From the NCBI RefSeq assembly GCF_027257955.1, contig NZ_JANZNQ010000019.1:1-64000 (forward strand): a DNA stretch of 64,000 bases, written 5' to 3'. This stretch comes from Zhongshania aquatica (lineage in GTDB: Bacteria; Pseudomonadota; Gammaproteobacteria; Pseudomonadales; Spongiibacteraceae). Numbering within the stretch: position 1 is the stretch's first letter; every line of letters starts with the position of its first letter. Made by a program: the position numbers and the translations under genes. Below are positions 6,058 to 23,597 of this stretch, piece after piece. Under the pieces are notes generated by a model. The model searched no databases. It worked only from the letters and a program-made list of their open reading frames with translations, and had not been told where the DNA came from.

Positions 6058-6996
6058 TCACTTGCCAAACAATCGCGCAAAAAAGCCATTTTTCTTGGGT
6101 GCTGCGGCCTTTGCAGTAGAGACAGATTCTTTTTGGGTTGAGGGTAGCTCGAAAGCAAACTCCGCGATACCCATACGAATAATGTCGCCATTTTTAAGGT
6201 AAGTAGACAGGCCTTTTAGCTCGTTAACAAAGGTGCCGTTGGTGGACATCCAGTTCACCACTTTCCAGCGTGGCCCTTCATTGATTAGCTGTGCATGTAG
6301 CCCTGAAACACTAGTTTCAACTACGCATATATCTACGTTTTGTTGTTCACGGCCGATTTTCCAGACGGTTTTAGTAGACGTGTCTAGTGGATAGATTACG
6401 CCCTCGATACTGAGGTTTAGGCCGACCAGCCTCGCCGTATCGCCAATGGCTGCTATGTCTAAATTACCCTCGCGATAATTCTTACTGGCTTCAGAGCCCG
6501 CTTCTTCTGAGAAGAATATCGTACCTGTTGCCTGCTCAAGTCCCGCATTTTCAGACCACATGGCAGGAATGTCGGCGCTGCTAGTGTCAATTGCTGCCGG
6601 AGTGGCTGCTGGTGTTGGCGCAGCATTCACGGGAGCCACGGGTGGCGGAGTGTAGCCGCCGATTTGGGTTGCGTCGTCGGTGTTGTTAAAGGTAGTCGTG
6701 TCTTGATCCGACTCCAGCGATACCCTTAATTCGAAATCGCCAATTTGTAGCGCGTCGCCGTTTTTAAGGGTACTTTCACCGCTAACTTTGACGGCATTGA
6801 TATAGCTACCGTTACTAGAACCAAAATCCTCAAAACTTAATACATCGTCCTTAATTTTTAATACACCGTGGTTTCTAGACACGCTTGAACTCAGCAGGCG
6901 AATATCGCTTTCTGGGCTGCGGCCAATTGATGTTTCCGCTTTGCTTATTTCATAGTCAATGGCGTTGACGGTATCGTAAAGTTTAAAGTGTGCCAT
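6058..6996 (-). CDS. Double FHA-domain protein
   Basis: 312 aa with no signal peptide, so probably cytoplasmic. The first FHA domain (~18-95) has GRSPESDIRL, SSSVSRNH and SSNGSYIN. The second (~205-285) has GREQQNVDI, SVSGLHAQL and STNGTFVN. These are the conserved phosphothreonine-binding loops. Between them lies a Pro/Ala/Thr-rich linker (~105-150). The C-terminus is Lys-rich and ends FFARLFGK. FHA domains read Ser/Thr kinase signals. No kinase is encoded in this window, but a PP2C phosphatase is the next gene upstream and another FHA protein lies in the same operon. Likely role: adaptor or target of a phospho-switch acting on the electron-transfer chain (inference). Confidence 0.85.
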   Translation of the reverse strand: MAHFKLYDTVNAIDYEISKAETSIGRSPESDIRLLSSSVSRNHGVLKIKDDVLSFEDFGSSNGSYINAVKVSGESTLKNGDALQIGDFELRVSLESDQDTTTFNNTDDATQIGGYTPPPVAPVNAAPTPAATPAAIDTSSADIPAMWSENAGLEQATGTIFFSEEAGSEASKNYREGNLDIAAIGDTARLVGLNLSIEGVIYPLDTSTKTVWKIGREQQNVDICVVETSVSGLHAQLINEGPRWKVVNWMSTNGTFVNELKGLSTYLKNGDIIRMGIAEFAFELPSTQKESVSTAKAAAPKKNGFFARLFGK

Positions 6997-7044
6997 TTTC
7001 TGTTTCCTTCAAATACTGATAATTTGGTGTGAGTCTGTGCTTTG

Positions 7045-7827
7045 TTACGCTGGAAAATGTTCTGTGTAGCCATCTATTCGGGCAATCGACACGATCGGCA
7101 GTATCGGTATGATTTCGTTCTCTTTGGGTATCGCATTGCTGTCTACCAGCACTGCGGTGATATTGTCTGCGCCATTATTTGCTATGGCGGTTGCTATTAA
7201 TTGTTCGAGTTGTTGCTCGCTAGAAATTTTGCTATCCAGTATTCTCGCGATATCACAGACATCCATGGCGTCGTGTAGTCCATCGCTACAGAGCAGAAGT
7301 TTTTGCCCATGAAAGAGCGCACCTTGTACAAGTGGAATATCATTCGCGGTAATAACTCCATGACCAATTGCGCGGTTAATGATGTTCTTTTGCGGATGCT
7401 TAAGTGCTTCGGTATACGTAATTTCGCCGCGGCCGATCATCGCTTCCATTTGTGAATGGTCGCGGGTAATTTGACGTAGCTCGCCGTCCCATAAATAGGC
7501 GCGACTGTCGCCAATCCAGGCTAGTTCAAAATGATGGCCACTAAAGTGAGCGACCACAACGGTTGATCCCATTCCAGCTTTACCGCGACCGTCTTCTGCG
7601 GCACGCAAAACGTCTTGATGCGCAGTGTAGATGGCGACAGCTAGCGACTTTCCCTGATCGAGTAGATCAGTGACCTGACTGGCGACGATGCTGGCCGCAA
7701 TTTCACCGGCAGCTGGGCCACCCATGCCATCGGCAACTAGGGCGATGCCCCAAGTGCTGTCGGCGACAAATCTATCCTCGTTTGTCGCGCGTTTGGCGAT
7801 ATTACTTTTGCCTAGAATGCTAATCAT
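7045..7827 (-). CDS. PP2C-family Ser/Thr protein phosphatase
   Basis: 260 aa, a single cytoplasmic PPM/PP2C domain of usual bacterial length. Metal-binding and signature motifs are all present: NEDRF, VADGMGGPAAGE, GMGSTVVVA, WIGDSRAYLW, LLCSDGLHD and GADNITAVLV. It should remove phosphate from Ser/Thr with Mn or Mg. The gene lies 4 bp after the pentaheme cytochrome gene and 48 bp before the FHA gene, all co-directional. PP2C plus FHA pairs normally accompany a eukaryote-like kinase, and none is encoded here. It may therefore act with a kinase elsewhere to reset FHA-bound phosphothreonine in this operon's products. Confidence 0.92.
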   Translation of the reverse strand: MISILGKSNIAKRATNEDRFVADSTWGIALVADGMGGPAAGEIAASIVASQVTDLLDQGKSLAVAIYTAHQDVLRAAEDGRGKAGMGSTVVVAHFSGHHFELAWIGDSRAYLWDGELRQITRDHSQMEAMIGRGEITYTEALKHPQKNIINRAIGHGVITANDIPLVQGALFHGQKLLLCSDGLHDAMDVCDIARILDSKISSEQQLEQLIATAIANNGADNITAVLVDSNAIPKENEIIPILPIVSIARIDGYTEHFPA

Positions 7828-7831
7828 TGCA

Positions 7832-9205
7832 TTATTTCTCCATGGCAGCTTTTAGTGTTTTTTGAGCGGCTGCTTTGAATCGATTTGGGTTATAGCTCTT
7901 TTCATCGTTAAGTACGGTAAATATTGCGTCATAGTACTGGGCAGTGTTGCTTGAATCATTTTGATTCGCGGCGAGCACTTGTAAGCCCAAAAATAGTTGT
8001 TCGGCATCCGCATAATCACGAACGTCGCCACTGGCGCCTTGTTTGAGTAAGGCGGTGGTTATTGCCTGTTGCTCACTCTTACTGAGGGGTGATTGAGCCA
8101 TGGTTTGCTCAGCGCGTTTCAGTAAGGACATAAGTTGCCTGCTGCTTGCCTGTAACTCTTTGTTACTGATTACCGTTGACTGATTTAATTGGCGAATGGC
8201 AGTGCTTAGATCTTTGCCCAAGGATTTTTCTCTAACTGCCACAACGGTGGCGAGTGTCCGCAGCGCGTTGTCATTGATACGGATAGAGCCCGCTGGCAGT
8301 AATTTCTTGTCGTCTAATGACCGTTGTACGTGGGTATCCATAGGGCGGTGACAAGAGTGACAATCGAACACGGCTAACTCTGGGAACAAGCCTTGCGGCA
8401 TACTGTGTTTTTCTAACAGGGCCAGTGAGTCTTGCGCTGCCTGCATTCTGCCCGCTAGCCAGCGGTCGAGCGCGGGGATACTTTTGCCACGTTGCTGGTA
8501 GTCTGCATCGTCGCGATGATGAGGGGGCATTAAGTTCAGCCAAGTGTCTAACTCAAAGCGCAGGCGGGGATGGCCCGCCGCCATCATTTCATGATCGGCG
8601 AGCTGATTAGTATTTCCTAGGTGACAGGACTGACATAACTTGGCGGTAAAGGCCGGATCTTCTGTAGGCGCTAAACCGTTCTTCAGATTTATTTGATGTC
8701 GAGCTGCGGCATCACTATCAGCGCTAGTATTCGCGCCGTAGTGCGAGTCTATCCAATTTTCCGCGCCGCCATGACAGACCTCGCAGCCAATACCGTCTGA
8801 AATTTGAAATTTTTCGCCCTGTAACTTTGCGGGTGTGGTATCGGCATGACAGGCTAAACATGCGGGTTCTTTACTCGCGTCAGCAATCCCCATATTGTCG
8901 GCAATGCGTTTTGAATCGCTATTTTTTAAAATAGAATAAGCGCGGGAGTGATGATCGTATTTCGCCCAAGTGCGGTATTCGTTCTGCATTATATTACCGC
9001 GCTCAACCGGCGCGGCGCGGCCATGACAAACGCTGTTCGCACAGCTTGCTACACCTAAGTGCATGGCTTGTGTATTTATATCTGTGTCGATGTTAATACT
9101 GCTTTCTGCTGCGAGTAGCGATCCCGCGCTGAGGCTTACCGTCGCGAGTAATGCAACGCGTACGAGTCGGGAGATCTGTATAAGCCGGTGCTTTGTTCTA
9201 ATCAT
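7832..9205 (-). CDS. Periplasmic pentaheme c-type cytochrome (cytochrome c554-like)
   Basis: 457 aa from the ATG at 9205, chosen because GGGAG lies 8 nt upstream and it gives a proper signal peptide (VRVALLATVSLSAGSLLAAES). An upstream in-frame ATG at 9247 would overlap the previous gene by 50 nt and spoil the signal. The ATG overlaps the upstream stop in ATGATTAG. Five haem sites are visible: one unusual CX4CH (CANSVCH) and four CXXCH (CLACH, CEVCH, CQSCH, CHSCH), with extra His for axial ligation (HHSRAY, HPRLRFE). The haem region is residues ~50-315; the C-terminal ~150 residues are helical with no haem. Probable periplasmic electron shuttle between the inner-membrane and outer-membrane parts of the operon. 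Confidence 0.85.
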   Translation of the reverse strand: MIRTKHRLIQISRLVRVALLATVSLSAGSLLAAESSINIDTDINTQAMHLGVASCANSVCHGRAAPVERGNIMQNEYRTWAKYDHHSRAYSILKNSDSKRIADNMGIADASKEPACLACHADTTPAKLQGEKFQISDGIGCEVCHGGAENWIDSHYGANTSADSDAAARHQINLKNGLAPTEDPAFTAKLCQSCHLGNTNQLADHEMMAAGHPRLRFELDTWLNLMPPHHRDDADYQQRGKSIPALDRWLAGRMQAAQDSLALLEKHSMPQGLFPELAVFDCHSCHRPMDTHVQRSLDDKKLLPAGSIRINDNALRTLATVVAVREKSLGKDLSTAIRQLNQSTVISNKELQASSRQLMSLLKRAEQTMAQSPLSKSEQQAITTALLKQGASGDVRDYADAEQLFLGLQVLAANQNDSSNTAQYYDAIFTVLNDEKSYNPNRFKAAAQKTLKAAMEK

Positions 9206-12200
9206 GCTTAACTCCCGTTTGTGCTTTGCTCGGCGTATCTTCGACAAACCACGGTTTTCCGTCTTTGTCTAAATAGAGTTTGTGCATTTCGGTCAAATTA
9301 AGTGGCCTCGCGCCGCGTCGTCCAAACACCGCAATTTGCCCGCCGCTTTCATCCACAGCACGATCACGCTCTAATCCGCGGGATAAACTTAGGGCGGGAC
9401 TGGCGGTTTGCTTGCCTGCAATCCACAGTGGATTTGGCTTTGGATTGAAACCGTAGAACTTGGGCTGTAAATCTGGCGAGCTTAATTGAATAACATTTAG
9501 ACCCGTCTTCGCGTCGGCAACATAGGCAAATAGTGAGGCGTTGGTGGTGCCGATCACGACGTCGCGGCTATCTTGCAAGTGTCCATCGGCGTTGTAACTT
9601 TGCAGTAATTGCATGCTTTCTGGGCGTTCTATATTAATGATGGCAAGACCTTGCCGCCCTGCGGCCACGTAAGCGTAACCCCTTGCTAGACTGATTTTGT
9701 GGGCATCGGCTAGTGGCAATGTCGCTGCTGGTAGTAAGTGTGCTTTTTCAGGTAACGTCACATCTACGATATTGACCCCGTCGGCATCGGTCACAAACAA
9801 GTAGCGGAATTGCAGGGCCGAGGCGCGTCCGTCATTCAGTGCGATGGTGTTTAGTAATTTGGGTTCTAGTGGCTTGTCGATATCGATAATAACCAAGCCA
9901 GCATCGGCGATAATGTAAAGATAGTGACCGCCAATGGTGATATGACGTGCTCCCTTTAGCACACCGTCGGCATTCCAGCGCAGCGCGGCTTCAATAAAGT
10001 TATTGCGCGGTTTGCCGTCGGCAAAGGTATTGACGTTGACAATAATCAAGCCTTCTTCGGTGTCGGTAACAAAGGCGTAGTTGTAGAGCGGGTGGAAGGC
10101 TTGCTCTTTGTTGTCGACCCGCATTAAGTCGCCTTGATTACGTTCTGGGGCAATTGGTTGAATGCTGGGTAGCGCGACGCAACTAGCATTTTTTGTGGCA
10201 ACTTTCGCGTCGTGTCCTAACTGGCTAAAGGGCGCCGTGATCAAGCGTTGTGATATACCTTTGTTTTCTACCGAGGCAACATCTAATACTCTAAAACCTG
10301 CTTTGCCATCTGCAATAAATAAATACTCTCCACGTAGCTGCAGACACTGACTGCGTTCAGCGCTATGTTCGTGTGATGTTTGTAATTGTTGTTTTTGTGC
10401 CTGGTGGGCAGCAAAAAAGTCTGGGTAAGCAAAGCGATGTAAATAGCTGCCGATGACCGCCTGGGGTTCATCCCACTCGGTGACCGCGATGGCTTCAATA
10501 TTCTTCTCTTCACCGAGCCATACATTGCGGCCAATAAAGTCGATGAATTTTGTACCCAAGGTTAAGGTTTGGGCGATGATGGCATTATTGTCTTTTTCTG
10601 CCGACAAATGGCAGTCGCTGCAGGTTTTAGTTTCGGTTTTACGCACCGTATGCGGGAAATGCGGATTGAAGGCTTGCGAGCTAAAACCACTGGCGGAGAT
10701 CGGTGCTTGCTGTACATAAATGCGTTCGCGGTTGGCGTTGGTAGACGACAATACCAAGGCCGAGGATGATCGCACCGGTGCGTATTTTCCACCTTTGTAG
10801 GGCGCGCGTTTACCTATCATGAAGATTTGATCACGCGCGACCTGCGGATTATAGGTGGCGAAGTTACGCGACTCGCCGCCTTCAAAATGGTGGCGCTCAG
10901 ATTTTTCATTCGCCTGTATCGGTAAATGGCAGCCGCCACAGCTCGTCGTCCACGAAGTATGGCAGGCGTAACACTCCATCTCTTCAAAGTTATGTGCGGC
11001 AGTGTCAGGGTTTACATCGCTGCCCCAATGTTGGGTGCTCGGGTCCTTCGACATTAATTTAGCGCGCGCAGCTTTAGCATTGTATGCGGGGTGATTTGGG
11101 TTTACTGAATCCTTCACCAAAGACAGTGTCCACTCAAGCTCGGGATTGAGCATAGACCGTTGCATGAGTTTGCCATCTACCCATTCAAAGCGACGGCGGC
11201 CATCGGGATTGCGCAGCAAACTTAAATCGGTAGTGCTGGCATTACTAGCGGGGCCAGAGGGTTGCAGGTTTGGATATTTACTCGCTGTGCCATGACAATC
11301 CACGCAGCTGATTTCGACGGCTGCGGCAACTTCGCCGTACATATGCCCGTTGCCGTGGTTGTCTTGGTTGAAATGACAATCCACACAGTGCATACCAACT
11401 TCGGCATGGATGGAGCGCATGTGCACTGCTTTATCAAATTTATCTGGGTCTTCATCGCTGACGATATTGTTATCGCCGTCTAATAAATTGCCATCGCGGT
11501 CTCGTTTGAATACCGCGCGGAAATTCCAGCCGTGACCGTGGTAGTCGGCAAATTGCGTGTCTTCGAGTTCGGGGTTGAGTTTAGCGACGTCCTTAAGAAA
11601 ATCGACATCGGCCCATTTGCCCTTTGGCGCGGCGCCTTCGGGATTGCGATCGAGTATTTTCCGCTTGGTGGCGGCGTCTGGATACTGTTGGTCTTTCGGC
11701 CACATATGTGGCGCGTCAGATTCGTAGTCCCACATGGTGTAACCCAAAAAGGAGTTCACGAACATATTGGGTTGGTGCATATGGCAGACCATGCACTGGC
11801 TGGTTGGAATCGCGCGGGTAAAGCGGTGCTCGATGGGATGACCCGAGACAGACTTGTTGATGGTGGGATCGACGCTCTGACTTTTACCGGTGTTGCCGAA
11901 GGCAGCGTAGGGGCCAGAATGCACTGGTTCGCGGTCGTTGGCGTACACCACATGGCAGCCGGTACAGCCTGAGCTGCGATAGTCGCCAGGTTGATCATTA
12001 GTACCCATAAACCAAAACAGGGGATCGTTAAGACGGGTTTTGGTCATGTTGATAAGCGGTACTGAAATCCGTCCGCCGGTTCCGGGGCCACGATTGGATT
12101 GTTTGAAATCGGGTCTGCCGGGTTCTTCTAAACGCTGTATTTGTCCCAAAGCATTGGGGATACCGGTTTCTGGAAATAGATTCACAATATTGCGACCGCC

Positions 12201-12956
12201 GCGTTCAAACACCCTAAATACATCGCCGGGTTTTACAGTCTCCCATGCGGGTAATGGAAAGATTTGATCGAGAATCCCCATCTCGGCCATTTCTGGCGTG
12301 GGTTTGATGGCGGCGGTTATAGAGGCGGCTTGGCCATCGCGGGTATAGGCTTCACCGAGAATGGAACGTTTGTAGGGAAGTATGCCGTTATTGTAAGCCG
12401 CCGCCGCCCAGAACATGGCGCCGGTGCCGTGCAAGCTGCGGGTCGACGCTTCTATTATATTTTGGTGGCAGGCGCCACAGGCTTCGCTGGCGACGCGGAA
12501 ATCACCGGGATTTACAAAGCGAATATATTCGGGCGCCTCTTTATTCAAAAGAGTATATGTGCGTTCTGGGTTGGCGGAATTGGGCCAGTGCCAGCTGTCG
12601 GGAAAACGCGGCAACACGTGTGCTTTTTCCAGTAATGGCAGCATGAGGTTCGGATCAAGCTGCGCATCCTTGGCAAAACTAACACTGGCGTCGCCGCCGT
12701 GGCAGTCTACGCAACCTAAATTAATGGCCGGATTGTTATGCATATTGTGGCTGTCACTTTGCCGATGACAACTCACGCAACCTACACTTTTTTGTTCGAC
12801 ATCTGCCAGAGTTTGAAATGCAGGTGCGGGTGGCGCGGTGTGGTACACGTGCTCAACGGCATGTTCGCCGCCAGAGGCAAAAGCTGGCTGACAAAATATC
12901 CCGCAGCATAAAGCCAGCAGTGTAATGATCGGTGTTTTAGTAAGTAAAAATGGCAT
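9198..12956 (-). CDS. Decaheme c-type cytochrome with C-terminal LVIVD-repeat beta-propeller
   Basis: 1252 aa from the ATG at 12956, chosen because it opens a clear signal peptide (LLTKTPIITLLALCCGIF, ending QPAFA). Longer in-frame starts would bury it. Ten CXXCH motifs are seen: CVSCH, CVDCH, CGACH, CTGCH, CMVCH, CVDCH, CVDCH, CYACH, CGGCH, CSDCH, spread over residues ~55-800. The last ~430 residues hold about six LVIVD-type repeats (YLFIADGKAGFRVLDV, YLYIIADAGLVIIDI, YLFVTDADGVNIVDV, YAYVAAGRQGLAIINI), which fold as a beta-propeller and often occur on surface proteins. It starts 20 nt inside the end of the outer-membrane barrel gene. Likely the outer-membrane or surface electron-transfer unit. 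No lipobox is seen, so its location is uncertain. Confidence 0.85.
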   Translation of the reverse strand: MPFLLTKTPIITLLALCCGIFCQPAFASGGEHAVEHVYHTAPPAPAFQTLADVEQKSVGCVSCHRQSDSHNMHNNPAINLGCVDCHGGDASVSFAKDAQLDPNLMLPLLEKAHVLPRFPDSWHWPNSANPERTYTLLNKEAPEYIRFVNPGDFRVASEACGACHQNIIEASTRSLHGTGAMFWAAAAYNNGILPYKRSILGEAYTRDGQAASITAAIKPTPEMAEMGILDQIFPLPAWETVKPGDVFRVFERGGRNIVNLFPETGIPNALGQIQRLEEPGRPDFKQSNRGPGTGGRISVPLINMTKTRLNDPLFWFMGTNDQPGDYRSSGCTGCHVVYANDREPVHSGPYAAFGNTGKSQSVDPTINKSVSGHPIEHRFTRAIPTSQCMVCHMHQPNMFVNSFLGYTMWDYESDAPHMWPKDQQYPDAATKRKILDRNPEGAAPKGKWADVDFLKDVAKLNPELEDTQFADYHGHGWNFRAVFKRDRDGNLLDGDNNIVSDEDPDKFDKAVHMRSIHAEVGMHCVDCHFNQDNHGNGHMYGEVAAAVEISCVDCHGTASKYPNLQPSGPASNASTTDLSLLRNPDGRRRFEWVDGKLMQRSMLNPELEWTLSLVKDSVNPNHPAYNAKAARAKLMSKDPSTQHWGSDVNPDTAAHNFEEMECYACHTSWTTSCGGCHLPIQANEKSERHHFEGGESRNFATYNPQVARDQIFMIGKRAPYKGGKYAPVRSSSALVLSSTNANRERIYVQQAPISASGFSSQAFNPHFPHTVRKTETKTCSDCHLSAEKDNNAIIAQTLTLGTKFIDFIGRNVWLGEEKNIEAIAVTEWDEPQAVIGSYLHRFAYPDFFAAHQAQKQQLQTSHEHSAERSQCLQLRGEYLFIADGKAGFRVLDVASVENKGISQRLITAPFSQLGHDAKVATKNASCVALPSIQPIAPERNQGDLMRVDNKEQAFHPLYNYAFVTDTEEGLIIVNVNTFADGKPRNNFIEAALRWNADGVLKGARHITIGGHYLYIIADAGLVIIDIDKPLEPKLLNTIALNDGRASALQFRYLFVTDADGVNIVDVTLPEKAHLLPAATLPLADAHKISLARGYAYVAAGRQGLAIINIERPESMQLLQSYNADGHLQDSRDVVIGTTNASLFAYVADAKTGLNVIQLSSPDLQPKFYGFNPKPNPLWIAGKQTASPALSLSRGLERDRAVDESGGQIAVFGRRGARPLNLTEMHKLYLDKDGKPWFVEDTPSKAQTGVKHD

Positions 12957-14754: not shown

Positions 14755-16720
14755 CACTATTGTTAAAAGGACTTTGTGGGCAGCTGATATAGCGCAGGCG
14801 TTGACCGCGAGGCGCAAGTTGATCGGCACGGATTGCAGCAGGCGCATTGTTTACTGTGCCGAGAATTTCTCCGGCTTGATGCAAGCCAAGAAAGGCGATC
14901 ATATCGTCTTGATCAACGCCGTCACCTGACACGCCGATGCCGCCGATTAATTGACTACCGCGATAAATGGGCACGCTGCCTGGGAAAATTTGTATACCGT
15001 TTGCCAATCGTGGCGCCGCCGAACTGGTGGTGCCCGCGAAGGGCAAGCCAACGCAGTTTTTATTCACGTCCTGCGCGCCACCCATCAAATACAAAAGATG
15101 GCTAACAATACCGTTAAAACTCAAGTCCAGTTGTAAGCCAGTCGAGAACGGGCTCCATTCCCCTGCGGGTTTACTAAAGGGGCCGGGACCATTGGCATCA
15201 ATACCGTCTGGAAAATGAGGACGCGACAAATTACCGCCGGAGCGATCCGCAAAGGCAATGCCATTGCTGAGGGCGGTGGCATCGCCAGTGAGATTAATGA
15301 CGTTCTGTACGTAATCGCCCAAGACAATGGTATTTGCCGCGGCGAGTGCGGGTGTTAAATATTGCGCGTCAGGTAAGGCGTTAAGGAAATTGGCGGCATC
15401 GGTTGATGAGAAAAATGTTGCGGTGCGCGCTTTTTGCAGTGACACGTCGGAGCCGAAAATAGGTGCGTCGCGGGTTCTGGCAATACCTAAAATACTGCCG
15501 TCGGTATCGACCACACTGATGGTGACGCGCGCAGAGGAACCGAGTGGCTGTCTAATTTGCGCTCGCGCGCGATTCGCCACCGATAGCGCTTGATTGATAA
15601 TTTCTTGCACTTCCGTAGCGCTCAGTTGCGAACCCGCCGTCGGTGGAAAGCGCTCTACATTGTTTTTGTCAACGAATACGAAGGCATCGCGACTAGGGAA
15701 GCGAAGATTATTATCCGAACGAATTCCAGAACTTGGTTGTCCGAACGCTTGGCCTGCACGGTAGCCATCATTGGCATCGTAATAATCCTTCACGCTGACA
15801 AAACTGCCGTCGGTATTTACAACTAATACGGGAGCACTTTGGACGCTGGGATCGATGGCGTTGAAATCTATGTCGGCGAAGCGCAGGGTTTTTCCATCAA
15901 CCGTTATGCGATCTGCTTGCCGGTTGGCTGGTACCGCAAAACCGAAACTACCGGCGAGGGCAATGATTTCGTCGCTGTCGAAATCGACATTACTTATATT
16001 GCGGTCGATGCCGTAGACAAAGTCGTCGGAGATAACACCGATGCCACCGACGGGGGTGCCGAATTTATAGAGCGGAATACCACCGGGGTCAGCTGAAAGG
16101 CCCAATGGTGAGCGTTTGGGGCCTACCAATATACTTGGATCGCTGGCGTCTAATACAAAGTCCGAACAGGGCAGTTGGCTGAATTGCACTCCGAATAGTG
16201 GTCCGCTAGGCTGGTTAAATTCACCGGGGTTAAAATGTTCCTGTACAATTTGGCCCGCAACGCGGGTACTAAAGCCGTTGCCCTCGCTGGACAGGTATGC
16301 AGCGGTAATGGCTTTCGCCATCGCCGCGAGGGCATCGCCACCTACTGTCGCAGAAATAGGGAGCTCTAGCCGTTCTAGGCCACCACTGATGACAGTGTCT
16401 TGATTCGATATTAAGGTGAGCTTTCTGTCACCATTAGCCAGCACTTCGGTCATTCTAAAAACAGTGAGTATATTGCCACTGCGATCTGCTACTGCGACGG
16501 TGGCGGGAACATTTAGTGCCCGCGCTTGCGCAACTGCTTGGCGAACGATCAGCTCAACATCATTACTGCTAAGAAAACTACTGGCACTGGCGCAACTGCC
16601 ATCGCATTGGGTGTTGGCATTGCTACCACGTGCGCCATCTTGATCGTTGCGATCACCCTTACAGGCGGCCAAGGCGAGCAATGTCGCCAGCACGACAATA
16701 TGGCAATTACGAATTCTCAT
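14726..16720 (-). CDS. Lipoprotein with two GlcG/HbpS-like (DUF336) haem-binding-type domains
   Basis: 664 aa. The signal peptide ends in a lipobox, LALAAC (Cys ~20), so the protein is lipid-anchored. Two copies of the GlcG/HbpS fold are visible: one starting at ~50 (VRQAVAQARALNVPATVAVADRSGNILTVFRM, here quoted as the segment before base 16440) and one at ~375 (INQALSVANRARAQI, RVTISVVDTDGSIL). Each ends in an IGGIGVSGD-type turn (GGIGVISDD, IGGIGVSGDGVDQDD). DUF336 proteins bind haem or act in oxidative sensing in some bacteria, and others have unknown roles. The gene overlaps the preceding FHA-cytochrome gene by 4 nt (ATGA), so it belongs to the operon. It may protect, deliver or sense haem at the periplasmic surface. 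Confidence 0.8.
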   Translation of the reverse strand: MRIRNCHIVVLATLLALAACKGDRNDQDGARGSNANTQCDGSCASASSFLSSNDVELIVRQAVAQARALNVPATVAVADRSGNILTVFRMTEVLANGDRKLTLISNQDTVISGGLERLELPISATVGGDALAAMAKAITAAYLSSEGNGFSTRVAGQIVQEHFNPGEFNQPSGPLFGVQFSQLPCSDFVLDASDPSILVGPKRSPLGLSADPGGIPLYKFGTPVGGIGVISDDFVYGIDRNISNVDFDSDEIIALAGSFGFAVPANRQADRITVDGKTLRFADIDFNAIDPSVQSAPVLVVNTDGSFVSVKDYYDANDGYRAGQAFGQPSSGIRSDNNLRFPSRDAFVFVDKNNVERFPPTAGSQLSATEVQEIINQALSVANRARAQIRQPLGSSARVTISVVDTDGSILGIARTRDAPIFGSDVSLQKARTATFFSSTDAANFLNALPDAQYLTPALAAANTIVLGDYVQNVINLTGDATALSNGIAFADRSGGNLSRPHFPDGIDANGPGPFSKPAGEWSPFSTGLQLDLSFNGIVSHLLYLMGGAQDVNKNCVGLPFAGTTSSAAPRLANGIQIFPGSVPIYRGSQLIGGIGVSGDGVDQDDMIAFLGLHQAGEILGTVNNAPAAIRADQLAPRGQRLRYISCPQSPFNNSDEQNVCAGK

Positions 16721-18450
16721 TTACCGTCTCCCATTGCGGGCGCGGTCATCGTTGGAAGTGCGAAATTATGAAATGCGTGGCAAGCAATGCATTGCAGTTT
16801 GATATTGTCTTTCGCGGTGTCTTTTTTACCCTCTTCATGGCAGTCGAGGCATACCCCCATTTTCGGCATTAACACGTCACTGCTCAGTTTCGATGTTGCC
16901 GCATCATGACAGCTAGCGCAGCTTTCTTTGCCCATATTGTCGGCCGACATAATGTGGTGGGCAGCGTGGCTGAACCGGGCGGTGGGGAACCAGTCGGTAT
17001 TGAGTTTCACCTCTTTCACTTGCCATTGCTTGTCACCATTGGCGTCTTCTTCTTGGTAAGCCTCATGGCAATCAACGCAGCCGCCTTTGCTAAACAGGCG
17101 CTCTATTTCTTCTTTGGCCCATACGCCGCCGCATTGCAGTGGGTCTTGGTTTTTACAGCGTGCACTTGTGTCGCGACCAGGTACGCGGCGCGCCGATTCC
17201 TGTGGTTTCGAGTAGCGCTGCTGGGCCGCCTGACTAATATAAAATTCGTGTAAATAAGTGCGAACGATCTCTGCTGCCGCGTGGGGTAAATTGCGCTGCG
17301 GATTGGCATCGTCAAAATCCAAGCTGTGGCAACTTGCGCAATTCGCTTCCATAGTGATGGGTAAAAAGTGTTCGCCATCGGGCGCGGCAGTATGGCAGTC
17401 ACCGCATATTAGCGCTTCTTTTTGAGGGCTATCTGGTATTTTTTTACCCACTTTCTCGATGTTCAAATGCAGTTCGTGGGGAAATTTAAGATTGGATTCT
17501 TCCCTTATTTCTTGGGTAGATAGCGCTTTGTTTTTTGTCCATTCTCCCGCTTTTTCCTGTAGCAATGTCGGCATAAAGTGGGGATGCTGGCCCGCGCTAA
17601 AAAGAGTGGCTGCGTCCATTTCGCCCATTGTATTGCCACTGACATCGATCTTGCTGATGGGGGTTTTGTGACAGTCAATACAGAGCTTGTTGTCTTGCAC
17701 AATCAGCATTTGGGGTTCGTTGTGCTCTTTGTGACATGCTTGGCAGCTATCTGTACCGCTAGTAAATGGGTGATTCGCAGGGAAATGACTGTGTGTATCG
17801 GCGTGGCAGCTAAGGCAGGTCGCGGTATCGACTTTTTGAAATCCCTTGGTGTGGCAGCTATTACAGTTGTCTACTAATCCAGATAAATGATGGGGACTAG
17901 ATAATGGACCTGTTGACCAGATTTGATCGCTGGGCGCACCGAAGCTTTGTAGCGTTTTGGCAGTATCGGGTTGCAAGTAATGTAATAGCGGAAAAATTAA
18001 AGCATTGACTAAAATGACAAAGCTAAGAACATAACTCCATAGGCGACTGCTGGGCAGTTTTAGTCGTAACTCATGTTTGTATCGAGTTTGTACAGACGGT
18101 TGACTGTCTGCGTCGATATTGACTTGTATGGATGCGTCAAAGCCGGGCGGAGGCGGAATTAATGCAATTTTATGTGAGCCAATGTCTATCCAATTGCCCA
18201 GTGTAACAGTCGCTTGTTTTAGCTTTTTACCATCGATACTGAGGTTGGCATTGGCGCGACAGGTCACTTTTAAATGACCTTCATCGATCACCGTTATGTC
18301 GCTGTGATTGGTGGCTATATCGTCGCCAAATAGTTGAATGTCGCAGTGGTTGCCACTACCGACGCGAACACGATTTGTGCTGAGTTCGCTGTCACTTTGA
18401 TCAATGACTTTGCCGTTTTTAAGCCGTGTCTTTCGTATGAGAATAAGCAT
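16717..18450 (-). CDS. FHA domain - transmembrane - decaheme cytochrome c fusion
   Basis: 577 aa from the ATG at 18450; a start at 18489 would overlap the upstream gene. Residues ~1-100 resemble an FHA domain (RVRVGSGNHCDIQLFGD, ATNHSDITV, LSIDGKKL). A single hydrophobic helix follows at ~140-160 (YVLSFVILVNALIFPLL) and then a periplasmic part with ten CXXCH motifs: CNSCH, CLSCH, CQACH, CIDCH, CGDCH, CASCH, CVDCH, CASCH, CLDCH, CIACH. The layout places the phosphopeptide-reading domain in the cytoplasm and the haems outside, so a phosphorylation signal could reach a periplasmic redox module. It follows the cytochrome b gene by 4 bp. Spacing and His content (HHLSG, HSHFPANHP) resemble NrfB/cytochrome c3-type repeats. 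The FHA loop SSxNG is only partly conserved, so phospho-binding may be lost. Confidence 0.85.
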   Translation of the reverse strand: MLILIRKTRLKNGKVIDQSDSELSTNRVRVGSGNHCDIQLFGDDIATNHSDITVIDEGHLKVTCRANANLSIDGKKLKQATVTLGNWIDIGSHKIALIPPPPGFDASIQVNIDADSQPSVQTRYKHELRLKLPSSRLWSYVLSFVILVNALIFPLLHYLQPDTAKTLQSFGAPSDQIWSTGPLSSPHHLSGLVDNCNSCHTKGFQKVDTATCLSCHADTHSHFPANHPFTSGTDSCQACHKEHNEPQMLIVQDNKLCIDCHKTPISKIDVSGNTMGEMDAATLFSAGQHPHFMPTLLQEKAGEWTKNKALSTQEIREESNLKFPHELHLNIEKVGKKIPDSPQKEALICGDCHTAAPDGEHFLPITMEANCASCHSLDFDDANPQRNLPHAAAEIVRTYLHEFYISQAAQQRYSKPQESARRVPGRDTSARCKNQDPLQCGGVWAKEEIERLFSKGGCVDCHEAYQEEDANGDKQWQVKEVKLNTDWFPTARFSHAAHHIMSADNMGKESCASCHDAATSKLSSDVLMPKMGVCLDCHEEGKKDTAKDNIKLQCIACHAFHNFALPTMTAPAMGDGK

Positions 18451-18454
18451 GGCT

Positions 18455-19345
18455 TTACCAGTAAAAAAAGACGGTGAAAATATGAACAAATAAAGAAACT
18501 AATAAGGCCATACTTAGAGGGATATGTACGCTTAACCAAAGTTTGGTTCTGAGTTGCAGACTTAGTTCGCGACGCAATCGGCGCAGAAGCTCTTGCCGAC
18601 GACCAAGAATATAAAGTAGTTTTTGTAGTCGTTCAGCTTCGCCGGGCTTTTGTGTGTTGGGGATTTTAGCCACCAAAAAATCAATGACGGTTTGTTGTCC
18701 CTCATTGCTAAGCATTTGTGAATGCTTGCTTGTGGTGCCCTTTGTCGGCATGGCGACACTCGATCTGTCGCGACCAAAGAACTGCGTTAATAAATTGCCG
18801 CCAATGGCTGTGCGATCAATGGCACTGGAAATCATGTGCTGTATTTCCGTGTCACAATTGGCCGCCAGTGCCAAACCTTCTTTATCTATTTTTGCTAGGG
18901 AGTCAAGGCGCTGTTCAAAGGACTGGTTGGCGCGGTTTTCTACTAATAAGCGGGGATAGCGGAGGTAGGCATACAGTCCGATTAAACCGCTAACGATGAC
19001 GGCACACATAAGCATATAAGCGAGTGTGTGCACGTTTAAACCGAATTGGAATGCACAATGTAAGGTGGCCACGCCAATGAGGCTAATCCCCAAATAGATA
19101 TGTGCGGATACCCAAGCCTGTAAGTTTGCACTTTTACTTGCGTAGCTGCGTTTGCGAATACCTAGGCAAGAAAGCCAAATAATGAGAAACAGTCCGATAC
19201 TGCCCAAGACATAGCCCTGCCAACTGCCACCGTTTGGCGGCAGCGATTCTGCCTGACTCAGATACAAGCCGCTACAGGCGATCAGTAAAATCACTGACCA
19301 CCAAAAATAGCGTCGTCTGGCGTAGTTAAGAATGTTTACGTACAT
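18455..19345 (-). CDS. Inner-membrane cytochrome b-like protein
   Basis: 296 aa. About five membrane segments: residues ~12-30, 46-66, 79-103, 107-130 and 270-294. Paired histidines within segments (AHIYLGISLIGVATLH, NVHTLAYML, and SVHIPLSMALLVSLFVH in the last) fit bis-His ligation of two b-haems, like NapC/NrfD-independent quinol or ferric-reductase-type cytochromes. A cytoplasmic segment of ~135 residues sits between helices 4 and 5 and contains a basic coiled region (LLRRLRRELSLQLRTK). No exact family is recognised. It lies 63 bp after the FAD/Fe-S gene and 4 bp before the FHA-cytochrome gene, so it is the probable membrane step linking cytosolic reductant to periplasmic haems. Confidence 0.75.
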   Translation of the reverse strand: MYVNILNYARRRYFWWSVILLIACSGLYLSQAESLPPNGGSWQGYVLGSIGLFLIIWLSCLGIRKRSYASKSANLQAWVSAHIYLGISLIGVATLHCAFQFGLNVHTLAYMLMCAVIVSGLIGLYAYLRYPRLLVENRANQSFEQRLDSLAKIDKEGLALAANCDTEIQHMISSAIDRTAIGGNLLTQFFGRDRSSVAMPTKGTTSKHSQMLSNEGQQTVIDFLVAKIPNTQKPGEAERLQKLLYILGRRQELLRRLRRELSLQLRTKLWLSVHIPLSMALLVSLFVHIFTVFFYW

Positions 19346-19408
19346 TTAAATTCTTTCTCATAAAGCACTAACATTAAAATGCGTTTTGCTCGGCGCGGAA
19401 TTCGCTCG

Positions 19409-22033
19409 TTAGCGAAGATTTAATACGTTAATAAATTCAGCCGGTTCCATCCGTTGTGCTGCTCCAGTCGGGCAATACTGCACGCATGCTGGCCCGGCTG
19501 GTCTGTCTACACATGCGTCGCACTTAACGGCCTTTTTACCGATTTCTTTTGCCATATTACTAGGCGTCGCATTTTTATCTTCTCCCGGTCCTGGGCCCAC
19601 ACCACCAAATAGCCAGCTTAGAAAAGGTGGCTTTTCGGGTAGTTGATAGCTGAGCTTGATGACACCGTAGGGACAATTGGTTTCACAGTTGCCGCAGCCT
19701 ATGCAAGAGTCATTAATATAGACTTCGCCGCTGCTCTCGCGATGGATTGCGTTTGGCGGACACTCTTTCATGCAGTGCGGTTGTTCGCAATGGCGGCAGG
19801 CAATAGGCAAGTTGATATTGGCAAAGCGCACACCCGCCTTTCGGTCTAATCGACTTATTCCTTTGTGGGTTTCGGCGCAGGCTGTTTCGCAGTTGTCGCA
19901 ACCGACACAGAGGTTTTCGTCGATGAGCAACACATTGGTGCCCTCACCGGTTCCCTGTGCTAGCAGGAATGACATCAGCGAAGCTTGTTCGGGAAGCGCG
20001 GCTAATTCAGCAGTTGATTTTAATTGCTTTGAGGTTTCCGTTTGCAGCCGCGTGATGGACTCGGGTGATTTGCTGAGAAGCGCCAAAAAGGGTTGTCTAC
20101 TAATTTCTATCACTTCTGAGCGCACGGCTGCGTAGGCTGACTCACGGCGAGTCGGGTCGCCCATTAACGCCATTTGGCCAAATATCTGACCGGAATGCAG
20201 CTGACCGATAGCGATCTCTTTGCCATTTTCTAATCGACTTAAGGCAATGGTGCCACTGCGTATGAGATACAGGTGTTCGCCAGCGTCGTCTTCTTTGTAA
20301 ATGTATTTACCGGTATTGAAGTGCGATGTTTTTACTTGTTTGGCAATGTCTCGCAAATCGACGTAGCTGCCTTGGGGGGTAAAAAATTGTTGCAAGGTAC
20401 GCTGTAAAAATACGGTTTCTATACCCTTGGCTACTTCGTCGTTGGCCGCCATGAGTTTCGCCATGGTGCGCCGTGGTGTTTCGATAAGAATGGTATCGTT
20501 GCTGGCAACGGCATTACCGATACGTGGGCGGCCGGAGAGTAAACTCATTTCACCGAAAAATTGCCCGGGGCCAAGTATGGTATCGCTGCCCTCGGCCGAA
20601 CTTAATGTGACTTGGCCTTCTATAATGGTAAAGAATGAATTGCTGTAATCATTGTGCCGATAAATAAAATCGCCGCTGCGCAGAAGCTTGGTGATAACCG
20701 GGGGGCTGATTGGGGTGACAGGTTTAATTGCCAGTCCTGCGGATTGTCTACGTTGGATATCGGCGGATCGCGCCGATTCGATATCACGAATACGCTCTTG
20801 GCTAATGCTAGCGCCCTGGCTCTGCAGGCTATTAAGTTGTTGGGCATCTGAAACGCAGTAGCGGATATCGCTTTCCATAATGAGTTCACGGAAAGCGAGG
20901 GCGTTCATTCGCGAAAACATCGGTACGCGTTGTTGGTATAGGGCAAGGATGTCGTCTACATCGGCGAGATAGGGCAACAGAGAAAATTTCAGCGCGAGCA
21001 GAGGGTGGTCTACAGGCTTAACCGCTTTGCCTTTGATGTATTCGATAACATCATAGCCTTGGTTCATGCCCTGTTTAATCAGCGGGTAGCCAGCTAGTGC
21101 GCCAATAATATACAGACCGGGAACGTTACATTGATACTGACCGTCTAGCTCGGGAATGGCTTCGGGATCTTTGTTTGGAAGCGCAATGCCGCAACTCTCG
21201 ACAAACTGCCGCGGAGGGATAGAGCCTAAGCGTGCGATAACACGATGGCAGGGCAATGTTTCGTCGCCACGAGCAGTATTGAGGACTACTGTGCCAACCG
21301 ATCCTGGCGGCGGTACGCTGAGGGATTTTACCGAGGCGTCGTAGCGGCAGGAGAATGCCATGTTTCTGTCGTTGATGGCCTCTAGAACATTGTCTAAGTT
21401 GCCCTGCTTGGCGCGGGTAAATTCATTTTTTCGGTTAACAATAACGACACGATTATTTTTCGCCAGCGCTAGCGCATTCTCGATGGCGGCGTCGCCGGCG
21501 CCGACCACGATAATATCTTCGTCATGATATTCGTCTGGGTCGTCGAGCTGATATTGCACAAAGTGTGAGTTGTCGCCATCAACACCTAAGCGTCTAGGGT
21601 TGCCTTGCGTACCGATCGAGAGCACGACATTATTTGCCGAAATGGTGTTGCCGTCGGCACAGTGAATTTCGAAATTTCCGCGCGATCCCGTTATTTTGGT
21701 GACCTCGCAATTAGCGCGGAAATTAATTCCTGTCTCGCTAATTCCCTGATCCCAAGATTTGAGTATTTGCTCGCGTTTACCCGCAGCAAATTCTAAGGGA
21801 CTGCGCAGATCTAAATAGCCTGGTTCATCCATAACATGCTTACCTTTTTGGTAGCGTTGTATGGTATTGGCGTGTAGCGGAGAGCCTTCAATGAGGATGT
21901 GGCTTGGTGTGTGGTCGGGGTTGGCAGCGCGTGCATCGAGGTCGTATTCAGCCGCTTTGGCTGCGGCGCTAAGGCCTGCTGGGCCTGCGCCGATGACGGC
22001 GATATCGAAATGTTCCTTCACGTTTTCTGCCAC
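19409..22033 (-). CDS. FAD-dependent oxidoreductase with two cyclic-nucleotide-binding domains and four [4Fe-4S] motifs
   Basis: 874 aa, cytoplasmic, first gene of the operon. Residues ~8-340 form a thioredoxin-reductase/YpdA-like flavin domain ([24 protein letters not shown] site IIVVGAGDAAIENALALA; C-terminal GLYIIGALAGYPLIKQG). At ~450-560 and ~570-690 lie two cNMP-binding/CRP-like domains (GPGQFFGEMSLLSGRPRIG; GQIFGQMALMGDPTRRESA). The rest is polyferredoxin: CVGCDNCETAC, CRHCEQPHCMKEC, CIGCGNCETNC and CDACVDRPAGPAC, followed by CPTGA. It has the form of an electron input or output unit gated by cAMP or c-di-GMP and delivering to the cytochrome b next door. The redox CxxC of true thioredoxin reductases is not seen in the flavin domain, arguing against disulfide chemistry. 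Confidence 0.88.
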   Translation of the reverse strand: MAENVKEHFDIAVIGAGPAGLSAAAKAAEYDLDARAANPDHTPSHILIEGSPLHANTIQRYQKGKHVMDEPGYLDLRSPLEFAAGKREQILKSWDQGISETGINFRANCEVTKITGSRGNFEIHCADGNTISANNVVLSIGTQGNPRRLGVDGDNSHFVQYQLDDPDEYHDEDIIVVGAGDAAIENALALAKNNRVVIVNRKNEFTRAKQGNLDNVLEAINDRNMAFSCRYDASVKSLSVPPPGSVGTVVLNTARGDETLPCHRVIARLGSIPPRQFVESCGIALPNKDPEAIPELDGQYQCNVPGLYIIGALAGYPLIKQGMNQGYDVIEYIKGKAVKPVDHPLLALKFSLLPYLADVDDILALYQQRVPMFSRMNALAFRELIMESDIRYCVSDAQQLNSLQSQGASISQERIRDIESARSADIQRRQSAGLAIKPVTPISPPVITKLLRSGDFIYRHNDYSNSFFTIIEGQVTLSSAEGSDTILGPGQFFGEMSLLSGRPRIGNAVASNDTILIETPRRTMAKLMAANDEVAKGIETVFLQRTLQQFFTPQGSYVDLRDIAKQVKTSHFNTGKYIYKEDDAGEHLYLIRSGTIALSRLENGKEIAIGQLHSGQIFGQMALMGDPTRRESAYAAVRSEVIEISRQPFLALLSKSPESITRLQTETSKQLKSTAELAALPEQASLMSFLLAQGTGEGTNVLLIDENLCVGCDNCETACAETHKGISRLDRKAGVRFANINLPIACRHCEQPHCMKECPPNAIHRESSGEVYINDSCIGCGNCETNCPYGVIKLSYQLPEKPPFLSWLFGGVGPGPGEDKNATPSNMAKEIGKKAVKCDACVDRPAGPACVQYCPTGAAQRMEPAEFINVLNLR

Positions 22034-22241
22034 ATTTCCTTTCCTTCTAAAATTGCTATATTGAATAACAGTTTTACTTTTAGGCGGCTTTGCTTTCAGA
22101 TGATTTTAAGGGCTTCGCATGGAATAAAGCTTAAAAACATCCTAACTACACTGTTAGATTTCAGAGAGTCTACCGGTGTTGTAAGTCATACGCCATGTTT
22201 GTTCTCTGCTATGCTCTTAATCTACTTGAGAGGGCAGTCGC

Positions 22242-23597
22242 ATGACAACAAGTCAACATGTTAATTTGGAACAATTTATTGAGGGTGTTATCCGCCGGAA
22301 TCCAGGGGAAACTGAATTTCATCAGGCTGTGTATGAGGTAGCAGCAGATATATTCGATTTTATTGCCGACAAACCTATTTACCACGAAGCGCAAATTTTA
22401 CGTCGAATCGCCGAGCCGGATAGGGTGATTTCCTTCCGGGTTTGCTGGGAAGACGACGCGGGCAATGTTCGTGTGCAGCGTGGCTATCGCGTGCAGAATA
22501 ATAATTCTATCGGACCTTACAAAGGCGGTTTGCGATTTCACAAAAGCGTTAATCAAAGTATTTTGAAGTTTCTCGCCTTCGAACAGACATTTAAAAACAG
22601 CTTAACCGGCCTGCCGATGGGTGGGGGTAAAGGTGGTTCTGATTTTAACCCCAAGGGTAAATCTGACCATGAAATCATGCGCTTTTGTCAGTCGTTTATG
22701 ACTGAGCTATTTCGCCATGTTGGGGAGGATACTGATGTGCCAGCAGGGGATATCGGTGTGGGCGCGCGCGAGATCGGTTATATGTTTGGTCAATACAAGC
22801 GAATTACCAATCGCTATGTGGGCGTACTAACTGGTAAGGGCTTGGAGTGGGGGGGGAGCTTGGTTCGCAAAGAATCTACTGGCTATGGAGTGGTGTATTT
22901 TCTGGAAAATATGTTTAAGCAAGATAAAGGGACGATTGAAGGTAAGGTTGTCGCAATCTCTGGTGCTGGGAATGTTGCCACGCATGCAGCCGAAAAGGCT
23001 ATTCAGCTTGGCGCTAAGGTCATTACTCTGTCGGATTCTACCGGCTTTATTCATGATCCAGACGGTTTCAATCGTGAGAAGGTTCAATGGGTAGTCGATC
23101 AAAAAGCGCACAGTCGTGGCAGTGTCGCGGACTACGTTAAGGTGTTTCCGGTGGCGAGTTTTCACGAGGGTGAGCGTCCTTGGGGCGTTAAATGCGATGT
23201 GGCGATGCCCTGCGCGACTCAAAATGAGTTAAGCGAAGACGAGGCAAAAATACTGATTAAAAATGGCGTGAAGGCCATTGTTGAAGGCGCGAATATGCCT
23301 TGTAGCAATGATGCGATCGCGTTGTTTCGTGACGCGCGAATTTTATTTGGACCAGCCAAGGCTGCGAATGCGGGCGGCGTAGCGGTATCAGGTTTAGAAA
23401 TGAGCCAAAACAGTACTCGAATCAGTTTGAAAGAAGAGGAACTGCAGGGCTTGCTGCGGGAAATTATGGAGAATATCCATCAGAATTGTTTGGAGTTTGC
23501 GGTACAAGCCGATGGATATGTCGATTATGCCAAGGGCGCAAATATTGCGGGTTTTAAGAAAGTCGCCAATGCGATGTTGGCATTTGGGATTGTGTGA
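22242..23597 (+). CDS. gdhA: NADP-specific glutamate dehydrogenase
   Basis: 451 aa, matching the hexameric bacterial enzyme (E. coli 447). It makes glutamate from 2-oxoglutarate and ammonium with NADPH. Substrate-site motifs are intact: GPYKGGLRFH, FKNSLTGLPMGGGKGG (catalytic Lys), PAGDIGVGAREIGYM, and the coenzyme turn ISGAGNVATHAAEKA. The start is supported by GAGAGGG 7 nt upstream. It is monocistronic, divergent from the cytochrome operon with a 208-bp gap, and followed by a hairpin. Confidence 0.97.
   Translation: MTTSQHVNLEQFIEGVIRRNPGETEFHQAVYEVAADIFDFIADKPIYHEAQILRRIAEPDRVISFRVCWEDDAGNVRVQRGYRVQNNNSIGPYKGGLRFHKSVNQSILKFLAFEQTFKNSLTGLPMGGGKGGSDFNPKGKSDHEIMRFCQSFMTELFRHVGEDTDVPAGDIGVGAREIGYMFGQYKRITNRYVGVLTGKGLEWGGSLVRKESTGYGVVYFLENMFKQDKGTIEGKVVAISGAGNVATHAAEKAIQLGAKVITLSDSTGFIHDPDGFNREKVQWVVDQKAHSRGSVADYVKVFPVASFHEGERPWGVKCDVAMPCATQNELSEDEAKILIKNGVKAIVEGANMPCSNDAIALFRDARILFGPAKAANAGGVAVSGLEMSQNSTRISLKEEELQGLLREIMENIHQNCLEFAVQADGYVDYAKGANIAGFKKVANAMLAFGIV

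Follow-up and report, generated by a model that had tools for sequence, protein, structure and literature searches.

What kind of electron-carrying system do nine closely packed genes of the gammaproteobacterium Zhongshania aquatica encode, and how might it be controlled? The genes occupy positions 6058-22033 of the 64,000-nucleotide stretch analysed here (the window; contig NZ_JANZNQ010000019.1 of assembly GCF_027257955.1) and were described in an initial annotation, made from the sequence alone, as an electron conduit with built-in phospho- and cyclic-nucleotide signalling. Our analysis points to a real, widespread and conserved electron line with an entry enzyme that appears to sense second messengers. 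The individual proteins are already annotated in databases (PLSDB names one ‘multiheme c-type cytochrome’), so it is the system as a whole, rather than any single protein, that appears undescribed. We give an even chance to the reading that it exports electrons from NAD(P)H along a line of two modules, with second messengers controlling that line directly.

All nine open reading frames (ORFs) lie on the minus strand at the positions first reported, and their coordinates and Pfam domains agree with the parts that had been proposed. Transcription would begin with the entry enzyme FADFd, followed by a cytochrome b-like protein (cytb), the multihaem cytochrome FHAcyt, an HbpS-like lipoprotein, an outer-membrane beta-barrel (OMP), the multihaem cytochrome LVIVD10h, a c554-like cytochrome, a PP2C phosphatase and a double-FHA protein. 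With plausible starts, FADFd and cytb are separated by 63 nucleotides and cytb and FHAcyt (likely start ATG 18450) by 4, FHAcyt and HbpS overlap by 4, HbpS and OMP by 29 (likely start ATG 14754) or 20 (ATG 14745), OMP and LVIVD10h (likely start ATG 12956) by 20, and LVIVD10h and c554 (likely start ATG 9205) by 8; gaps of 4 and 48 nucleotides then separate c554 from PP2C and PP2C from the double-FHA gene. The overlaps of 4-29 nucleotides noted earlier are therefore present at four of the eight junctions, but the other four are gaps of 4-63.

FADFd (19409..22033), the proposed cytosolic electron input, is a fusion of three elements: a Pyr_redox FAD-NAD(P) domain like those of thioredoxin reductase and ferredoxin-NADP reductase (TrxR/FNR), two tandem cyclic nucleotide (cNMP)-binding domains and a HycB/NrfC-like domain with several 4Fe-4S matches. 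It has no transmembrane segment in the window protein or in 55 of 67 rows of the family alignment, the other 12 having one hydrophobic stretch (these counts, like the membrane-segment, N-terminus and lipobox counts below, come from a simple hydropathy script). The FAD and NAD(P) dinucleotide motifs of a TrxR/FNR-type flavoenzyme are present, as is a GxGD motif together with NR[RK]xEFxRAK, the fixed letters of which are found in 62-66 of the 67 rows (the third position is R in 28 and K in 16). The latter motif, which we take to resemble the 2'-phosphate motif of TrxR/FNR enzymes, does no more than hint that NADPH is preferred to NADH. The FAD domain shares its sequence family with thioredoxin-reductase-like ferredoxin-NADP reductase and YpdA/Bdr but, in FADFd, it is fused to two cNMP domains and one 4Fe-4S domain.

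The tandem cNMP region matches the domains of PKG and PKA and carries the phosphate-binding cassette (Glu and Arg) expected of a cNMP-regulated protein. In the first domain, the Glu is present in 65 of 67 rows and the Arg in 66; in the second, the Arg is again present in 66 rows and the Glu position is mixed (E in 45, Q in 18). Where the Arg is missing, in the single remaining row of 67, the alignment has a gap. Genes for making and degrading cyclic nucleotides also flank the cluster in relatives. Of the 120 stretches read, at least 11 have a class III cyclase close by, a figure that comes from a non-exhaustive search, covers varying distances and has no background rate beside it. They include CHASE2-cyclase receptors in the flanks of six loci (given here under our own locus numbers: L025 983-3238, L081 8030-10237, L103 17651-19912, L116 21-1607, L121 16547-18670 and L123 2807-4666), a cyclase-TPR protein in L100 and a cyclase adjoining the FADFd-containing genes in L138; in L026 a CHASE2 domain protein is cut by the locus end. 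In one clade, FHA-class III cyclase fusions replace the double-FHA protein (L069 15057-15971, L095 11436-12326, L098 15121-16011). A CpdA/SpdA-like phosphodiesterase is encoded directly beside FHAcyt in eight loci of a Sphingomonadaceae-like clade, and a ninth lies near the outer genes in L123. For the family, the case that cyclic nucleotides control FADFd gains strong support from the conserved residues and from these neighbouring genes.

Of the next two proteins, the first would carry electrons across the inner membrane. This protein, cytb (18455..19345), has weak, below-cut-off matches to Ni_hydr_CYTB and DUF4405, three to five hydrophobic segments in 66 of 67 rows and, by eye, five conserved His residues; it probably binds two b haems. 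FHAcyt (16717..18489) comprises a cytosolic FHA-like domain (a weak FHA/YscD-like match, below cut-off), a single transmembrane helix (around residues 154-172 of the longest ORF; one is predicted in 65 of 71 rows) and a periplasmic part with 10 CxxCH motifs, as many as in 73 of 79 rows. In its FHA domain, the GR motif has kept its Arg in 40 of 71 rows but not in the window. The C-terminal part of FHAcyt has weak similarity to Alternative Complex III subunit A (E 0.0007), from which the protein differs in its cytosolic FHA domain. The exported c554-like protein (7832..9247) is weakly similar to cytochrome c554 (E 0.0035) but has, in addition to four CxxCH motifs, a CX4CH haem motif. Since 74 of 76 rows of the family begin their haem motifs with CX4CH, five haems is a reasonable estimate. 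The haem counts of 10, 10 and 5 proposed at the outset fit these motif counts and that for LVIVD10h, with the fifth c554 haem depending on the conserved CX4CH.

LVIVD10h itself (9198..13082) is an exported protein with 10 CxxCH motifs (also in 104 of 107 rows) and a C-terminal LVIVD beta-propeller; its N-terminus is hydrophobic in 85 of 92 rows. A fold search with its model was set aside: the 50 matches listed look like beta-propeller proteins, and the haem part is badly modelled. The HbpS-like lipoprotein (14726..16720) has repeated HbpS/GlcG-type domains and, by eye, a lipobox-type N-terminus, which is lipobox-like in 46 of 77 rows. Its domains match extracellular haem-binding proteins; better matches are to a protein of unknown function, a glycolate-utilisation protein/EfgA and cobalamin adenosyltransferase. 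The OMP (12937..14847) matches no Pfam family and is modelled as a barrel of 18 long strands, with a predicted local distance difference test score (pLDDT) of 82.5. The closest solved fold is the alginate exporter AlgE (TM-score by target 0.58-0.72 and 11-13% identity for the AlgE matches listed); unlike AlgE, however, this barrel is encoded within a redox gene cluster, and it has no profile match to AlgE by sequence. MtrB, a barrel of 26 strands, is not among the best 50 of 872 fold matches. As the barrel is predicted to be 18-stranded and AlgE-like, it is doubtful that a decahaem protein is threaded through it as in MtrAB. By sequence, no solved relatives were found in the PDB with either the barrel profile (E up to 1) or the LVIVD10h profile (E up to 0.1).

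Does this set of genes stay together elsewhere? Scanning one genome collection with a 12-sequence LVIVD10h alignment gave at least 595 pattern matches, at least 594 of which, counted as stretches rather than genomes, were confirmed by tblastn. The best-scoring 80 of these, a selection biased towards the window, were kept as a locus set, with genes called as stop-to-stop ORFs and assigned by profiles built in this analysis. For 56 loci of this set the view reaches 9 kb or more upstream, and the exact order FADFd-cytb-FHAcyt-HbpS-OMP-LVIVD10h is found in 43 of them. One further locus has this order behind an extra c554, nine have no FADFd at the front (FADFd follows c554 in seven of these, and the other two loci are cut), two have no recognised HbpS and one has HbpS-OMP-LVIVD10h only. 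c554 lies directly downstream of LVIVD10h in 52 of 72 loci. The recurrence of the same gene order in dozens of loci indicates that the arrangement is more than chance.

Beyond the best 80, the exact six-gene order is seen in 4 of 15 loci from other genomes (and in one more behind a divergent c554) and in none of three plasmid loci. Other arrangements are commoner here mostly because members of the Sphingomonadaceae-like clade have the set as two separate clusters, with c554 ahead of HbpS. The family labelled f205 in our data would correspond to Sphingomonadaceae, judging from Sphingobium and Sphingopyxis plasmid rows in the same clade. In the window's taxonomic order, LVIVD10h is found in 8 of 145 genomes, the window's included, and in none of the three other genomes of the genus. 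Five of the seven other loci have all nine genes in order (the c554 gene of L145 being divided between two ORFs), another runs into a contig end and agrees as far as it goes, and the last has the seven core genes only. All nine genes are also present in Parahaliea maris, Parahaliea mediterranea, Pseudoteredinibacter isoporae and Steroidobacter agaridevorans, and Sphingobium herbicidovorans has the seven core genes in two clusters. A draw of genomes from the whole phylum contains LVIVD10h in 11 of 398, again including the window's. Large plasmids of Sphingobium and Sphingopyxis account for 13 of the 15 plasmid records matched; the other two are from Gloeothece and match at the propeller end only. 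The LVIVD10h tree largely follows taxon. Three loci (L096, L111, L099) come from metagenome-assembled genomes (MAGs) titled Bordetella parapertussis and Klebsiella pneumoniae that look mislabelled, their LVIVD10h rows falling among those of beta- and gammaproteobacterial MAGs. A small extra protein family (~160 amino acids) is encoded in L061, L062, L065, L074 and L087, between FHAcyt and HbpS in L065.

The set falls into two modules, an inner one with FADFd as the entry enzyme and an outer one with LVIVD10h, that go together even when unlinked, co-occurrence of the inner module being judged from FADFd alone. Among 274 genomes of the class (the window's included), 12 have LVIVD10h, 14 have full-length FADFd, with a fragment in one more, and 13 have HbpS. 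All 12 LVIVD10h genomes also hold FADFd and HbpS (Fisher p ~3e-19 and ~4e-20, respectively, for genomes that are not independent). The exceptions all point the same way: G028 and G091 have FADFd but no LVIVD10h, and the fragment lies on a contig of genome G214 along with cytb, FHAcyt, HbpS and the barrel, and the contig ends before the expected position of LVIVD10h. In the phylum draw, FADFd is present in 10 of 10 LVIVD10h-positive genomes, although in G474, G608 and G655 it is separated from LVIVD10h by over 600 kb or sits on a different contig. Two of three plasmid records also carry it; the third is a Sphingopyxis plasmid, the chromosome of which was outside the search. In L139 (8091-19252, genome G091), the inner module has other partners on the outer side, namely a 5-haem protein, a 536 amino acid protein with no Pfam match and a pair of c554-like proteins, and the module therefore looks reusable. 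L029 (140-6518) has a second, divergent set beside the main cluster on the other strand, comprising a c554-like protein, a FAD/Fe-S protein (580 amino acids), a cytochrome b-like protein and a multihaem protein (885 amino acids), which suggests a wider superfamily of such inner modules. Z. aquatica itself has a second, unlike multihaem cluster (L133 5374-15015, at ~79-89 kb of contig C41) encoding a FAD and 4Fe-4S protein, a cytochrome b-like protein, TPR and ankyrin/Sel1 proteins and two proteins of ~530 amino acids each with 21 and 19 CxxCH motifs.

The last two genes have a different standing. Those for the PP2C Ser/Thr phosphatase (7045..7827) and the protein with two FHA domains (6058..6996) have conserved motifs, catalytic in the case of PP2C, and occur together in 22 of the 57 best-80 loci with 5 kb downstream in view, in 2 of 17 loci from other genomes, in none of three plasmid loci (both again with 5 kb downstream) and in 6 of the 7 other loci from the window's order. 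The core is seven genes, and PP2C and double-FHA are accessory. The idea of one conserved nine-gene unit consequently needs trimming: the genes do remain grouped in the majority of informative loci, as they do within the window's order, and unlinked modules still co-occur, but PP2C and double-FHA are accessory and the set is split in the Sphingomonadaceae-like clade. A Ser/Thr kinase dedicated to the cluster was sought and rejected, the two PF00069 matches in the genome both being on other contigs. With PP2C and FHA only accessory, and no linked kinase in the genome of the window, the phospho-signalling part of the idea is weaker than the cyclic-nucleotide part. Elsewhere in this genome (L134 7071-13564) a Ser/Thr kinase, a Sel1-caspase-domain ORF and an FHA protein are grouped.

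A candidate source of reductant lies divergently upstream. The NADP-specific glutamate dehydrogenase GdhA (22242..23597, plus strand; 712 bits against a cut-off of 536 for the NADP-specific model) begins 208 bp from FADFd and is one of two GdhA-like genes in the genome. Of 107 loci, 14 (window included) have a GdhA match above 200 bits close to the cluster, against 0.25-0.8 expected (for a 2.5-4 Mb genome with 1-2 copies, ignoring relatedness; a 30-bit match in L064 was dropped). It is because of this recurrence near relatives' clusters that GdhA can be said to belong with the cluster, as a proposed NADPH partner. The gene is divergent and upstream in the window, L021 and L050, upstream of FADFd in L119, downstream in L022, L051, L053, L056, L072 and L120, beside c554 in L117, L118 and L127, and inside the operon on the same strand, between c554 and HbpS, in L124. 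Two of the seven loci read from the window's order (L145, L147) have it upstream. Other recurrent neighbours are a thiamine pyrophosphate (TPP) enzyme in seven loci and an aldehyde-dehydrogenase family in eight (PutA in L127), with both in five. This pairing, and a length of 550 amino acids equal to that of MaKGD (PMC10418658), raised the idea that the TPP enzyme is a 2-oxoglutarate decarboxylase. We set this aside as no more than a lead, as the enzyme scores as acetolactate synthase (NF006187) and its best solved relatives are acetolactate synthases. No such TPP enzyme scored above cut-off in the window's genome.

How might these parts work together? NADPH, for which the linked NADP-glutamate dehydrogenase would be a source in some genomes, would reduce the FAD of FADFd, and electrons would pass through its 4Fe-4S clusters to cytb, which would carry them across the inner membrane to the membrane-anchored periplasmic decahaem FHAcyt. 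The c554-like pentahaem protein and LVIVD10h would then relay them to an outer-membrane assembly of the AlgE-like barrel and HbpS lipoprotein, which would pass them on to an acceptor located on the cell surface or outside it. Binding of cyclic nucleotides at the two cNMP domains would switch FADFd, as the conserved residues and neighbouring genes suggest; more tentatively, PP2C and FHA proteins, where present, may add control by Ser/Thr phosphorylation. NADPH is a strong reductant and the membrane potential favours electron movement to the positive side, that is, outwards; outward flow would be thermodynamically natural. That the parts span cytosol to outer membrane and include signalling domains, as first proposed, is supported by domains and topology. 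Sequence comparison shows the parts, the gene order kept among relatives, the joint presence of FADFd and LVIVD10h even when unlinked and the retained cofactor and ligand motifs; from there, the direction of flow, the acceptor and exposure at the surface are inferred. A bolder version has somewhat less than an even chance in our judgement, namely that this is a quinone-bypassing trans-envelope line of a new class, found across Pseudomonadota with many aerobic members, switched directly by cNMP, built on a reusable inner module that can be fitted to different outer ones, served by nearby cyclases (as CHASE2 receptors or FHA fusions) and phosphodiesterases and, in several lineages, coupled to the oxidation of glutamate by a dedicated NADP-glutamate dehydrogenase.

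A number of observations weigh against this export line. The second cNMP domain of the window's FADFd has Gln in place of Glu, and no cyclase or phosphodiesterase was found beside the cluster in the window's own locus. The phosphodiesterase matches elsewhere fall below equivalog cut-offs and were seen in a single clade, in which L141 has an inner module with no phosphodiesterase beside it. Most loci have no linked GdhA. Cytb may have a quinone site. Two genomes (G028, G091) have FADFd without LVIVD10h, so FADFd may serve other ends, and the presence of LVIVD10h within taxa is patchy. A lipobox is missing from most rows of LVIVD10h and c554 (lipobox-like N-termini in 3 of 92 and 1 of 76 rows), such that a surface location would need a secretion route. 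LVIVD10h is modelled with low confidence in its haem region (mean pLDDT 66), and the model of the barrel predicts a structure narrower than MtrB. Finally, many carriers, Sphingobium for example, are presumably aerobes that need no solid acceptor.

Is this, then, a known system with extra domains? The locus has in common with MtrCAB, PioAB and MtoAB a barrel gene beside exported multihaem cytochromes and an inferred trans-envelope electron path, and FHAcyt and LVIVD10h weakly match models from named systems: FHAcyt scores 36.9 bits with the MtrA/DmsE-type decahaem model TIGR03508 (18.8 for the c554-like protein) and LVIVD10h 64.5, 26.1 and 26.7 bits with ExtM, ExtN and ExtO of the Geobacter Ext selenite/tellurite operon. 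These scores are far below the cut-offs (192 bits and 800, 200 and 200 bits, respectively), and neither the barrel nor any other protein in the genome matches the MtrB/PioB-type model TIGR03509 (control genomes were equally without a match); nor, as noted above, do the barrel and LVIVD10h profiles find a sequence relative in the PDB. On these scores we rejected Mtr and Ext membership, in keeping with the initial annotation, which knew of no named system with FHA, PP2C and cNMP domains. Mtr is fed from the quinol pool and has the 26-strand barrel MtrB, whereas here a NAD(P)H flavo-FeS enzyme, an 18-strand AlgE-like barrel model, cNMP and FHA domains and an LVIVD propeller are found, and none of the nine proteins matches a rhodanese domain such as Ext has. 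We regard an ordinary member of Mtr, Pcc or Geobacter Ext as most improbable. Only a slim chance attaches to the outer part serving chiefly to export or assemble a polymer or protein of the cell surface, with cytochromes that reduce or modify the exported material. The resemblance of the barrel to AlgE would suit this, as would the two-partner-secretion genes that flank the outer module in Sphingobium, but no polysaccharide synthesis family was recognised among recurrent neighbours (most families being judged by eye) and the co-occurrence is with a NAD(P)H entry enzyme.

The direction and target of the electrons leave two further alternatives. The inner part resembles in layout eukaryotic NADPH oxidases and ferric reductases, in which electrons likewise pass from NADPH through FAD and two b haems across a membrane. 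The line could accordingly be a surface reductase rather than a respiratory chain, triggered by a second messenger and acting on a soluble target outside the cell: on Fe(III) chelates, on oxygen to form superoxide or on haem or a redox-active ligand held by HbpS. This would sit well with the match of HbpS-type domains to extracellular haem-binding proteins and with aerobic carriers such as Sphingobium. We nevertheless find it unlikely: ten-haem relays exceed the needs of a small reductase, and the HbpS-like protein has the better matches listed above. The system differs from these oxidases in its added Fe-S clusters, TrxR/FNR-type FAD domain, long c-type haem relay and involvement of the outer membrane. 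Rather unlikely, too, is an inward line in which an extracellular donor (reduced metal, cathode or partner cell) would feed the outer module and FADFd would reduce NADP+ for reductive amination by GdhA. The linked GdhA is NADP-specific, a class that is usually biosynthetic, and one cluster-carrying Haliea MAG is titled Biocath_Gamma_022; against this, reduction of NADP+ would be uphill from most donors and against the membrane potential, we recognised nothing in the seven-gene core that could act as an energy-coupling subunit, and some neighbours look catabolic (PutA in L127, TPP enzyme with aldehyde dehydrogenase in five loci).

If the NAD(P)H-fed export line is correct, the sensors on its entry enzyme would allow it to be switched without new protein synthesis. 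The electron conduits known to us are quinol-fed and regulated at transcription, and we know of none with second-messenger sensors on the entry enzyme. The line would also extend electron export to aerobic groups, among them Sphingobium, Steroidobacter, Haliea and Limnobacter, and link redox chemistry at the cell surface with nitrogen metabolism and with signalling by cyclic nucleotides. A literature search, with subscription papers and preprints outside its coverage, found no paper describing this system, none joining a cyclic nucleotide-binding domain with a multiheme cytochrome and none joining any two of multiheme cytochrome, LVIVD and FHA domain. Other papers examined concern a Mtr-like four-gene cluster in Methylobacter (PMC13322032), Nitrosomonas (PMC10415592), Mtr in Halieaceae (PMC8805035; no mention of FHA, LVIVD or glutamate dehydrogenase), KGD (PMC10418658) and secreted multihaem proteins in sludge (PMC11495043).

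The divergent intergenic region shared by FADFd and GdhA (22034..22241) has no convincing FNR or CRP site: one CRP-like match with two mismatches overlaps its end (22227-22242) and an FNR-like match lies just inside GdhA. Over the whole window, FNR-like patterns are somewhat above chance (49 matches against a shuffle mean of 34.6) and CRP-like patterns at chance (23 against 22.1). An old yellow enzyme-like gene (3886-5934) was rejected as a tenth member, with weak matches in L052 and L117 only and none in L144-L150. A TPR family linked by single linkage lies near the cluster in 10 loci, with CcmH/CcmI-type proteins in L034, L102, L124 and, weakly, L119. In Sphingobium herbicidovorans (L126 515-8668 and 25212-31879), the flanks with the two-partner-secretion genes also encode a very large exoprotein-like ORF (2092 amino acids) and a 2-oxoglutarate-Fe(II) oxygenase. 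Closer to the start of the window, positions 669-2908 encode a type IV toxin-antitoxin system of the AbiEi/AbiEii kind, in which the toxin has a WYL domain, beside a short ORF (90-398) that by eye looks recombinase-like and has no Pfam match; the surroundings may thus be mobile.

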